DNA from: Sneathiella chinensis
GTDB lineage: Bacteria > Pseudomonadota > Alphaproteobacteria > Sneathiellales > Sneathiellaceae
Assembly (NCBI RefSeq): GCF_012720115.1
Contig: NZ_VNWN01000002.1
Span: 62,001 to 126,000 of the forward strand
Direction: 5' to 3'
DNA: 64,000 bases
Shown here: piece after piece, positions 47,828 to 55,162 of the stretch
How the letters are laid out: the number at the start of each line of letters is the position of its first letter
Position numbering within the stretch: position 1 is the stretch's first letter
The notes under the pieces: generated by a model
Databases searched by the model: none
The model's input: only the letters and a program-made list of their open reading frames with translations
What the model was told of the DNA's origin: nothing
Translations under genes and position numbers: made by a program

Positions 47828-49552
47828 TTACTTCCACATCCGCATGGTGAATTTGGCGCCAATGATCCCGCCGTCCGGGCTCATTCTGTTGGACGCGGAC
47901 AGGGTGCCGCCATGGGCATCCACAATCAGCCGTGAGATACTGAGACCCAGCCCGGAATGGCGTCCAAAGCCTTCGGATTGGGGCCGTTCCGTATAAAACC
48001 GGTTGAAGATGGCCTCCAGCTTGTTTTCCGGGATACCCGGTCCCTGGTCTTCCACATCCACCTGCACCCAGTTGCCATCGCCATTGCCCTCATGCTCGGT
48101 CAGGCGAACCTGAACGGTGCCCCCTTGCGGCGAGAAGGAAAGGGCGTTGTCGATCAGGTTTCTGAGAACCTGTCCAAGACGGCCCGGTGCCCCCTGAACA
48201 ACAATTTCGTTATGGGTGGTCTCGAAACTGACCGTCACGCCATTGTTGTTGCCGTTGCGATACATATCGACCACACCGTCAATCAGCTTGACCATTTCCA
48301 CGGGCTCGCCCTCGGTCCGGGACAATTCCGCATCCAGACGGCTGGCCGCAGAAATATCCGTGATCAACCGGTCCAGCCGCTTCACGTCACTGGAAATCAC
48401 CGCCTCCAGCTTTTTGCGGGTTTCCTCATCCTTGACCCGCTCGAAGGTATCGATTGCCGTCCCGAGGGAGGTCAGCGGGTTTTTCAGTTCATGGGCCACA
48501 TCGGCGGCAAAGGCCTCGACCGCGTCCATCCGGTCGTACAAGGCCGCCGTCATTTTCCGAAACGAGACGGACAGATCGCCGATTTCATCCCGGCGCCGCG
48601 AAAAGTCGGGCAGGTCCACCCGCCGCCCAAGACCCAGCCGAACCTTGTCGGCCGCTTCGGACAGGCGGTGAATGGGGGTGGCAATGGTGCGCGCCAGATA
48701 CAGCGACAAAAGCAGCGTGATCATGACGGTTACCGTAAACACGATCAGGGTGGTTACCTGCGCCGCCTTCACCGCATCATCGATGGCCTGACCGCTTTCC
48801 ACCAGCATCAGGCCGCCCAGAATATGCTTGAAGCCCTGAACCGGCACCGCCACGGTCAGCATCAGGGTCCCGTCTCGCGTCTGCCGGATGACCGACCCGA
48901 TCTCACCGCGCAGGGCTCCTTCAACCTCATAAAATTCCTTGGCGGACACGGCACTGTTGCCGGGATACAGGGGATAATCGCGGGTATCGGGGATCAGGCT
49001 GGCGATAAAGTCATAGAAATCGCCGAGAATTTTTTCCACACCCCGGGTCTCATCCGGTGGAGGCAGGTCCTCAAAAATGATTTCCCGGCCCGCCGAGATC
49101 AGAAGCCGGCTGTCGGCAATCAGACGGCCATCCCGGTTATACAAACGCGCCGGGGTCTTGGTCACCACGGCCAGTCGCCGTAGAACCTGCCGGATGGTTC
49201 GGGTTTCAAGAGTCAGGTGGCCGATCTGGCCGGTCAGGGAAACCTCGCGCAGGGCGCTTTCCCCCAGCGCCTCGGCAATCATGCGGCCATTGGTGGTCAG
49301 GGCCTGCACTCGCGCCTCGATCAGGCCGGTGCGGAACTGGTCCAGATACAGGATACCCCCGGCCAGAAACACCAGTGAAAAAAGATTGAGGGCCAGAATA
49401 CGCCGGCTCAGGGAGGAGAACGGCTCCCAGCGTCGGGATTTGGGCTTCTCCCCGCCATCCCGCAACTTCCGTCGTGTCTTTTTAACCGCCGGCTTGTCCC
49501 GGCTCAGGTCCTGAGCCTTCCCCGACTGCTCAGGGTCCCCGTTCTGCGTCAT
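47828..49552 (-). CDS. chvG: Sensor histidine kinase ChvG
   Basis: 574 aa. A long basic N-terminal cytoplasmic tail (Lys/Arg-rich, about 1-50) precedes TM1 (about 51-70). A periplasmic sensor and TM2 (about 263-283) follow, then HAMP. The H-box is ADVAHELKNPLTSLG, with an ATPase domain ending GLGLSISRLIVDAHGG. It partners with ChvI, 8 bases upstream. ChvG/ExoS in rhizobia and agrobacteria senses acid or envelope change, usually kept off by periplasmic ExoR; no exoR is in this window. Confidence 0.94.
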   Translation of the reverse strand: MTQNGDPEQSGKAQDLSRDKPAVKKTRRKLRDGGEKPKSRRWEPFSSLSRRILALNLFSLVFLAGGILYLDQFRTGLIEARVQALTTNGRMIAEALGESALREVSLTGQIGHLTLETRTIRQVLRRLAVVTKTPARLYNRDGRLIADSRLLISAGREIIFEDLPPPDETRGVEKILGDFYDFIASLIPDTRDYPLYPGNSAVSAKEFYEVEGALRGEIGSVIRQTRDGTLMLTVAVPVQGFKHILGGLMLVESGQAIDDAVKAAQVTTLIVFTVTVMITLLLSLYLARTIATPIHRLSEAADKVRLGLGRRVDLPDFSRRRDEIGDLSVSFRKMTAALYDRMDAVEAFAADVAHELKNPLTSLGTAIDTFERVKDEETRKKLEAVISSDVKRLDRLITDISAASRLDAELSRTEGEPVEMVKLIDGVVDMYRNGNNNGVTVSFETTHNEIVVQGAPGRLGQVLRNLIDNALSFSPQGGTVQVRLTEHEGNGDGNWVQVDVEDQGPGIPENKLEAIFNRFYTERPQSEGFGRHSGLGLSISRLIVDAHGGTLSASNRMSPDGGIIGAKFTMRMWK

Positions 49553-49560
49553 CTCTGCCC

Positions 49561-50259
49561 TTATTTATCCTTGAAACGATATCCGACACCATACAGCGTT
49601 TCGATAGCAGAAAATTCAGGATCCACGGCCTTCAGTTTCTTGCGAAGCCGCTTGATATGACTGTCGATCGTCCGGTCATCCACATAGATGTTGTCATCAT
49701 AGGCCGCATCCATCAACTGGTCACGGCTTTTTACATGGCCGGGTCGATTTGCAAGGGCGTGCAGCAGCATGAATTCGGTCACGGTCAGGGTCACTTCCTG
49801 CTCGTCCCAGAAACAGGCGTGACGCACACTGTCCAGTTTCAGCTTGCCGCGCACCAGCACTTCCTCGTCCTGTTCCTCGACACCGTTGGTGCGGGCACTG
49901 TTGCGGCGCAGGACAGTCCTGATCCGTTCCACCAGAAGACGCTGCGAGAAAGGTTTGCGGATATAGTCATCCGCCCCCATCTTGAGTCCGAGAAACTCGT
50001 CAATCTCGTCATCCTTGGAGGTCAGGAAGATCACCGGCAGGTTGGACTGGCGCCGCAACCGGTTGAGAAGTTCCATCCCATCCATGCGCGGCATCTTGAT
50101 ATCCAGTACCGCCAGATCCGGCGGATTGTCGATCAGTTCCTTGAGGGCCACTTCCCCATCGGAATACTTGGTCACGGTGAACCCTTCGGACTCCAGAAGA
50201 ATGGAAACCGTCGTCAGGATATTCAGGTCGTCATCGACCAACGCTACTTTTGTTGCCAC
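49561..50259 (-). CDS. chvI: OmpR-family response regulator ChvI
   Basis: 232 aa. The receiver domain begins [14 protein letters not shown], with Asp53 in [11 protein letters not shown] as phosphorylation site. The winged-helix domain (about 135-230) includes [15 protein letters not shown], and [17 protein letters not shown] is the recognition helix region. It is the first gene of the minus-strand chvI-chvG-hprK block. A 225-base intergenic region separates it from the divergent DMT transporter gene. Confidence 0.95.
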
Positions 50260-51693: not shown

Positions 51694-53298
<1,605 letters not shown>

Positions 53299-53312
53299 TC
53301 CGCCAACCTGAC

Positions 53313-53347
53313 AAAAAAGGCCGCCTCTTGCCGGGGCGGCCTTTTTT
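53313..53347. terminator. Bidirectional terminator between pckA and the first secreted-protein gene
   Basis: GGCCGCC and GGCGGCC form a stem flanked by six As on the left and six Ts on the right. A near-identical copy is at 53942-53972. Confidence 0.92.
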
Positions 53348-53377
53348 AATGGATCATGATCCTGTGGGCGGGCCGGA

Positions 53378-53764
53378 TCAGCTTGCCGGCTTCTTGTTCT
53401 CGTTCCATGCATCCCGCATGGCCTTGCATTCCGCCGACATGGTATTGGCCCGGCGTTCTTCCTTGATGTCCGAGCAGGACTTGCTGGCAACCTCGTTCAG
53501 GCAGGTTATCATATCCGCCGTCAGGTCCAGCGGCACCAGAACCTTTTCAAATTCGGCGCTGTGGGCCTCACACAAATCGAAGACCGTATCATACAGCAAC
53601 CCCTGCTGGTCAGAGCTCAGGCTCTGGTAATTCGGACGTTCCTCCAGACTGCATTGCGCCGTCTTCTTACAGTATAGTTCCCTGGCGTCCGTCAAGTCGT
53701 CCGCCGCAACCGGTGTGACCAGACAGGCCACCCCCAGCATTCCCATCAGAAAAGCGTTTCTCAT
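53378..53764 (-). CDS. Secreted six-cysteine protein of unknown function, copy A
   Basis: 128 aa. The signal peptide (MRNAFLMGMLGVACLVTPVAA, cut after VAA near 21) directs it to the periplasm. The mature part has six cysteines, at YCKKTAQC, LC, TC, SC and EC, in the same order as its neighbour at 54005. This suggests three disulfides. There is no recognised domain. The true start is the ATG at 53764 with GAGGGTG upstream, not the long upstream extension. It lies between two copies of the same terminator. Function unknown. Confidence 0.75.
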   Translation of the reverse strand: MRNAFLMGMLGVACLVTPVAADDLTDARELYCKKTAQCSLEERPNYQSLSSDQQGLLYDTVFDLCEAHSAEFEKVLVPLDLTADMITCLNEVASKSCSDIKEERRANTMSAECKAMRDAWNENKKPAS

Positions 53765-53881
53765 TGCACCCTCAAGTTGTTTTATCTTTATTCTATTTAC
53801 CCTTATAGACCCACCCTGTCCAGAATGTTGCCTCCTGCGGGTTTTCCGCCCAAAGCGGCCTGCCACCGGAAAAAAGAGGGT

Positions 53882-53986
53882 ATGAAGCACACCACGCCGC
53901 ACCGAAGAGGCTTGCAGGACAGATCTTCTGACCGGGCACAAGAAAGGCCGCCTCTTGCCGGGGCGGCCTTTCTCAATGGGTTGTGA
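53882..53986 (+). pseudogene. Vestigial duplicate of the divergent gene start
   Basis: An ATG at 53882 with an AGAGGG ribosome-binding-like sequence sits exactly 624 bases from the HAD hydrolase start at 54506, within a duplicated leader. The frame is only 34 codons (MKHTTPHRRG...) and runs through the second terminator. It is probably a leftover of the duplication, not a working gene. Confidence 0.4.
53942..53972 (-). terminator. Second copy of the GGCCGCC/GGCGGCC terminator
   Basis: Same stem and loop as at 53313-53347, with a shorter T-run (CTTTC). It terminates the second secreted-protein gene (minus strand, ending at 54005). Sequence similarity continues past it into the gene's 3' end. 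Confidence 0.8.
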
Positions 53987-54004
53987 TCCTGTGGGCGGGC
54001 CGAA

Positions 54005-54388
54005 TTACTTTGCCGCTTTCTTATGCATCTCCCATGCTTTTTGGATGGCCTGACATTCAGGCGACAGCGTATCGAAGTCTTGATTCTTATGAATTTCAGA
54101 ACAGGACATGTTGGCAGTACTGCCCAGGCAGACCAGTGTATTCAGTGACTGACCCAGCGGAATCACGGTCGCTGTAAACTCGCCGCTATCCTGATAGCAG
54201 CGATCGAATTTTTCCGCAGTCAACAGATCCCGACCTTCGGCAGACAGGTTCTTGTACCACCGCGTCTCCAATTGACATTGAACCACCTTGTTGCAAAATT
54301 TCTCCCGGACGCCCTTCAGGTCTTCCGCAGCAGCCGGTGCGATCAGGCAGGTCACCCCCAGCATACCGATCAGAAACGCGTTTTTCAT
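54005..54388 (-). CDS. Secreted six-cysteine protein of unknown function, copy B
   Basis: 127 aa paralogue of the gene at 53378. The signal peptide is nearly the same (MKNAFLIGMLGVTCLIAPAAA). The mature part keeps all six cysteines (FCNKVVQC, RC, VC, SC, EC) and the C-terminal pattern LSPECQAIQKAW, but most other residues differ, so the copies have diverged. The long frame extending to 55108 lies over the HAD gene and is not real. Its leader shares CCCTGTCCAGAATGTTGC with copy A. It is divergent from the HAD hydrolase gene. Function unknown. Confidence 0.75.
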   Translation of the reverse strand: MKNAFLIGMLGVTCLIAPAAAEDLKGVREKFCNKVVQCQLETRWYKNLSAEGRDLLTAEKFDRCYQDSGEFTATVIPLGQSLNTLVCLGSTANMSCSEIHKNQDFDTLSPECQAIQKAWEMHKKAAK

Positions 54389-54505
54389 TGCACCCCCAAG
54401 TTGCTTTGTTTTCAAAAGATTTACCGTTATCACCCTACCCTGTCCAGAATGTTGCATCCCGCAACCAAATATCCCAAAGTGGCCTGTCATTGTAACAAGG
54501 AGGAT

Positions 54506-55162
54506 ATGACAGTGCGGGATGCCGTGATTTTCGATATGGACGGATTGCTTCTGGAAACGGAGAAAATCGCCTTGAAAACGTTCCGGGCCACCTGCAGCCT
54601 GTTCGACATCCGCTTTAACCAGACCCTCTATGATACCTGCCTTGGCCGCAACCTTCAGGACACCGAAGGCATCCTGACCCGAAATATTCCGGCCTTTCCG
54701 GGGTCCGCCTTCATGACCGCCTGGAAGGACGCCTATCACGAGGAGGCCGTGGTCAAGCCGGTTCCCCTGAAACCGGGGGTGCGCCGCCTTCTCTCTCACC
54801 TGCAGGACAGCGGCATTCCCTGTGCGGTGGCGACCTCGTCGGGCCAGAGGGTAGCCCTCCGCAAGCTGGATAATGCGGGCATCATCGATCAGTTCCGCTT
54901 TGTGGTGTCCGGGGATCAGGTCACCAGAAGCAAGCCGGACCCGGAAATCTACCTGACCGCCGCCCGGCGCATCGGGACAGCCCCGGAACACTGTCTGGCG
55001 CTTGAGGATTCTGACAACGGGGTCCGGGCCGCCCATGCCGCCAACATGTTGGTCTTTCAAATTCCCGATCTGGTCGCGCCCTCCGCCGATGTGCGGCAAC
55101 TGGGCCATCAGGTCCTGCCCTCCCTGATACAGGTCTATAGCCTGTTCAAAAATCCCGCCTGA
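54506..55162 (+). CDS. HAD-family hydrolase, beta-phosphoglucomutase-like
   Basis: 218 aa HAD phosphatase with an alpha-helical cap. Motif I is IFDMDGLLLETE with the catalytic nucleophile Asp and acid/base Asp. Motif II is VATSSGQ, motif III is SKPDPEIYL with the conserved Lys, and motif IV is ALEDSDNGVRAA. The subfamily hydrolyses sugar phosphates or similar. The start is the ATG at 54506 with AAGGAGG upstream; the open frame continues upstream but overlaps the divergent secreted-protein gene. It is a single gene, and the exact substrate is unknown. Confidence 0.92.
   Translation: MTVRDAVIFDMDGLLLETEKIALKTFRATCSLFDIRFNQTLYDTCLGRNLQDTEGILTRNIPAFPGSAFMTAWKDAYHEEAVVKPVPLKPGVRRLLSHLQDSGIPCAVATSSGQRVALRKLDNAGIIDQFRFVVSGDQVTRSKPDPEIYLTAARRIGTAPEHCLALEDSDNGVRAAHAANMLVFQIPDLVAPSADVRQLGHQVLPSLIQVYSLFKNPA

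Follow-up and report, generated by a model that had tools for sequence, protein, structure and literature searches.

The interval between the pckA gene and the gene of a HAD-like phosphatase in Sneathiella chinensis contains a unit of about 600 bp twice, in head-to-tail tandem (53311-54508 of the window, the 64,000-nucleotide stretch of DNA analysed here). The sequence has undergone a segmental duplication in tandem, and the gene affected is accessory and encodes a small exported protein. The reading we favour, with a probability of roughly 0.55, is that the duplicated gene encodes a Sec-exported, disulfide-stapled helical protein of the binding or inhibitor type, and that both copies have been kept and are diverging. 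Tandem duplications are in themselves ordinary among genes for small exported proteins. What is newly described here is the family, characterised by its cysteine framework and fast core.

Read in window order, each unit has a hairpin terminator, a minus-strand gene, the leader of that gene and, in divergent orientation, a ribosome site and its ATG (Table 1). Two repeat families cover the duplicated stretch (D1, 187 nt, 77%, spacing 624; D2, 135 nt, 79%, spacing 627). The local alignment of the two units has a score of 263, while 300 shuffles gave a mean of 20 and a maximum of 29. The duplication had been proposed in a preliminary description to include the terminator and the leader, and the repeats and the alignment score bear this out: coding and non-coding parts are homologous in register, and single-copy relatives exist. 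The constant offset proposed at the same time is 624 for the start codons (53764 and 54388), for the shared leader sequence CCCTGTCCAGAATGTTGC (at 53814 and 54438; mean expected by chance 0.04) and for the divergent ATG (53882 and 54506), but the stop codons and the terminator are offset by 627 because the copy 1 gene has one extra in-frame codon. This one-codon indel is the single length change between the two genes. The genome of S. chinensis has two copies in all, both in the tandem pair. Near pckA, the window also contains genes for a sensor kinase and a paired response regulator (47828-50259), which look ChvG/ChvI-like by eye.

Table 1. Features of the pckA–HAD interval and its flanks, in window positions
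Feature	Position	Strand	Remarks
pckA (PEP carboxykinase)	51694..53298	+	ORF; left neighbour, convergent with copy 1; adjoins HAD in eight congeners
Hairpin terminator 1	53311..53350	both	Common to pckA (+) and copy 1 (-); A and U tracts on either side
Copy 1 gene, P0001	53378..53764	-	128 aa, signal peptide and six Cys
Copy 1 leader	53765..53884		18-mer at 53814-53831; orphan divergent RBS/ATG at 53882-53884
Orphan ORF	53882..53986	+	34 codons; begins at the copied divergent ATG; probably a vestige
Terminator 2	53938..53977		Duplicated hairpin, broken U tract
Copy 2 gene, P0002	54005..54388	-	127 aa, signal peptide and six Cys
Copy 2 leader	54389..54508		Doubles as the intergenic region to the divergent HAD gene; 18-mer at 54438-54455
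HAD-like phosphatase gene	54506..55162	+	Right neighbour; divergent from copy 2, likewise from the single-copy relative in G005

The hairpin of terminator 1 has a computed folding energy of -25.3 kcal/mol (z -4.2 on the plus strand, -3.1 on the minus strand) and, as A and U tracts flank both of its sides, can serve pckA and copy 1 alike. The hairpins of the two copies are identical at 29 of 30 positions, and the leaders are 72% identical. The 3'UTR between the stop codon and the hairpin (53346-53377 and 53973-54004) is conserved at 27 of 32 positions with no evident structure, TGATCCTGTGGGCGGGCCG being the same in both. The divergent start site, described earlier as duplicated, is present in both units as a ribosome site with an ATG, but it is a real gene start, that of the HAD phosphatase, only in copy 2. 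The ATG of copy 1 opens just the probably vestigial orphan ORF, which ends just past terminator 2. Since the leader of copy 1 retains this site, the copied unit began at the pckA terminator and extended as far as the HAD start codon or beyond. The orphan ORF has a weak similarity to the 5' part of the HAD gene (p about 0.02), which is suggestive only; a candidate remnant of the pckA 3' end ahead of terminator 2 was not significant (p 0.30). A 19-mer of the leader was rejected as a genome-wide operator, its exact matches in the genome being confined to the two leaders. Promoter matches occur here at about the frequency seen in shuffled sequence, with none of them on the minus strand within a leader, and all Rfam matches in the region are below gathering scores and located around the hairpins.

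P0001 and P0002 are 44% identical. Their similarity extends past the signal peptide, the mature proteins alone giving Z = 35 against shuffles. The two mature parts have six cysteines at corresponding positions, and the signal peptide is likewise kept in both proteins, as had been noted from the first reading. The gaps between these cysteines (5, 25/26, 22, 8 and 15) conform to the family framework described below. Cleavage of the signal peptides is likely after residue 21 (PVAA/DD and PAAA/ED). Each signal peptide contains a seventh cysteine, Cys14, with GVT or GVA before it and further hydrophobic residues after it; by eye, neither protein has a lipobox with a cysteine at the cleavage site. 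The N-terminal signals and the likely cleavage sites make the predicted Sec export of both proteins well supported.

Within the genus, one of 24 congeners (G005) has a relative, in single copy and divergent from the same HAD gene; its contig is identical to DIYE01000299.1 of the Alphaproteobacteria MAG UBA6062. Past this relative lie genes for a 152 aa lipoprotein-like protein and a branched-chain ABC permease-like protein (L004:1564-2995), not pckA. In seven congeners pckA and the HAD gene are spaced by 99-130 bp with the terminator alone in between. In an eighth, G006, the gap holds an EamA-like transporter gene (L009:2171-2605), which indicates that this gap receives different genes in different species. 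The six-Cys gene is accessory, because the flanks directly adjoin in species that do not have it. No further relatives were found among 385 genomes sampled across the class, nor in the plasmids and viral contigs searched.

No known family had been recognised for the proteins at first. Pfam indeed gives no match for them, and neither PHROGs nor the PDB sequences give a convincing one; the closest of the PDB hits, 5zx1 (E 0.03), covers the protein only in part and was not accepted. A distant tie, however, leads through intermediates to the NCBIfam family NF047485, the one consistent family match for the window proteins, compared by profile score alone. This profile matches P0001 with E 0.23 (11.5 bits), P0002 with E 0.11 (12.6 bits) and the G005 relative with E 2.6e-6 (27.5 bits). 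At E <= 0.1 it matches 14 of 18 members of the six-Cys family, the best E being 1.8e-8 and the best genomic match 29.1 bits. The matches span most of the profile (positions 30-132, 35-130 and 20-131 of 132), but wherever a bit score was given (11.5-29.1) it lies below the curated cut-off of 38 bits, and no genome search exceeded that value. The intermediates thus show the six-Cys family, as judged by profile comparison, to be a distant relative of NF047485 (Leptospira LA_2478/LA_2722/LA_4182) and not a member of it. LA_2478 is entered as a hypothetical lipoprotein (PMC10100824), whereas the window proteins have no lipobox. The literature search gave no other paper in which this name denotes the Leptospira gene.

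A search with NF047485 across the phylum led to two genomes of another proteobacterial genus, in a different class. When 80 genomes around those two were searched with a five-row profile, 21 of them, all of one genus, had a match, with 22 loci in total. Both flanks were recognised in 16 loci, each counted once: a ligase (AMP-binding) gene with the same orientation as the six-Cys gene, and a dUTPase-like gene that converges on it. In 23 of the 28 congeners without a match these two genes face each other, 72-241 bp apart; in the remaining five no ligase gene could be identified within the stretch fetched. The six-Cys genes of this genus share with the window pair their length, signal peptide and six-Cys framework, but they occupy a different genomic place, are single at each locus and encode proteins only 14-23% identical to P0002. 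These genes and the one in G005 are the single-copy relatives that the preliminary description had proposed to look for. In one genome, G795, the family occurs at two loci that lie on different contigs (L048 and L055); with completeness of 87% and contamination of 4%, a mixed assembly is possible.

All 18 aligned members, from two genera of different classes, have the framework C-x5-C-x(25-28)-C-x(20-25)-C-x8-C-x(11-15)-C, in which the first and fourth gaps are constant at 5 and 8. Besides the cysteines, the only conserved residue is one lysine, present in nearly all members. In the tree the two window copies join with full support, and the placement of the G005 protein is weakly supported. 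Two AlphaFold models, for which the alignments were shallow (two and three sequences), consist of helices only, with mean pLDDT of 79 and 82, and the predicted all-helical fold is well supported by them. The fold search gave no match to solved structures for either model, nor to viral models for the first, the only one compared with them. The narrow conservation suggests that the protein is not an enzyme but would rather serve in binding, inhibition or shielding. The invariance of the six cysteines would also suit a periplasmic protein that handles metal or redox equivalents, the cysteines binding metal or cycling between dithiol and disulfide. This is very improbable: a CXXC motif is absent from the 18 members, as is any conserved His, Asp or Glu ligand, and structural disulfides account better for an even number of cysteines in an exported protein.

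The mature part changes quickly. In 66 syntenic pairs the mean identity is 36% for the mature six-Cys protein, 77% for the dUTPase-like protein and 68% for the ligase, and the six-Cys protein falls below its neighbours in every one of these pairs. Between the copies in the window, nucleotide identity is 56% in the mature part, 83% in the signal peptide, 72% in the leader and 90% in the terminator with the 3'UTR; the mature part is significantly lower than each of the others (p = 2.5e-5, 0.003 and 7e-8, respectively). Edges so much more alike than the core could mean that the mature part of one copy was swapped by recombination with a diverged relative, the edges being kept or homogenised by gene conversion. 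Such a mosaic origin is distinctly unlikely. Among codons whose amino acid is conserved, agreement at third positions in the mature part (27/40) is comparable to that in the signal peptide (9/13), and the leader agrees to a like degree (87/121). Hence no older synonymous divergence of the core and no recombination is needed, the amino-acid change being simply fast; nor was a donor found in the own genome.

The dN/dS between the copies is 0.64 in the mature part. Being below 1, it does not demonstrate diversifying selection; the picture would be similar if constraint had been relaxed. Such relaxation is the principal alternative to the binding-scaffold reading: only the scaffold would be constrained, one copy would be redundant, and the two would drift without a functional split. 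The N half of the mature part, where all three codon positions are equally diverged, agrees with such drift, as do the absence of the gene from most congeners and the broken U tract of terminator 2. Yet both frames are open, with the one in-frame codon as the sole change in gene length, and the six cysteines, the signal peptide and the ribosome sites are kept in both copies. In a simple neutral simulation (substitutions only, no codon bias, 2000 runs) both frames stayed open in 0.25% of the runs, and never with all six cysteines kept. The open frames and the retained cysteines argue against decay, simple as the simulation is, and we regard the relaxed duplicate as possible though unlikely. The earlier view that both copies are kept and diverging is upheld by the same observations. 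As to which copy changes faster, the indications disagree: unique changes number 5 in P0002 and 12 in P0001, and the tree branches are 0.86 and 0.49, respectively.

According to the binding-scaffold reading, three disulfides formed in the periplasm would staple the helices, and the exported scaffold would serve to bind, inhibit or shield, its fast-changing surface perhaps tracking a changing partner. The duplication would have yielded two separately transcribed versions, which have since diverged in the mature part while signal, leader and terminator were kept. In conotoxin-type precursors a conserved signal peptide precedes a mature part that varies on a fixed cysteine framework. The window proteins resemble them in their conserved edges, fast core and fixed framework, but are bacterial, longer and helical; the likeness is an analogy only, with no toxin evidence and no claim of homology. 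A bolder proposal, which we hold tentatively and consider rather doubtful, is that these proteins form a patchy, undescribed family of exported three-disulfide helical proteins, possibly with an as yet unsolved fold: an evolving binding module with a fixed cysteine scaffold and a surface that changes rapidly against some partner, amplified by tandem duplication.

The cysteine framework unites into one family what would otherwise be orphan genes: the window pair, the single gene of a congener and about 20 genes in another genus. It also ties them, weakly, to an unstudied family of Leptospira. The tandem pair in S. chinensis is a natural experiment on the role of the family's variable surface.
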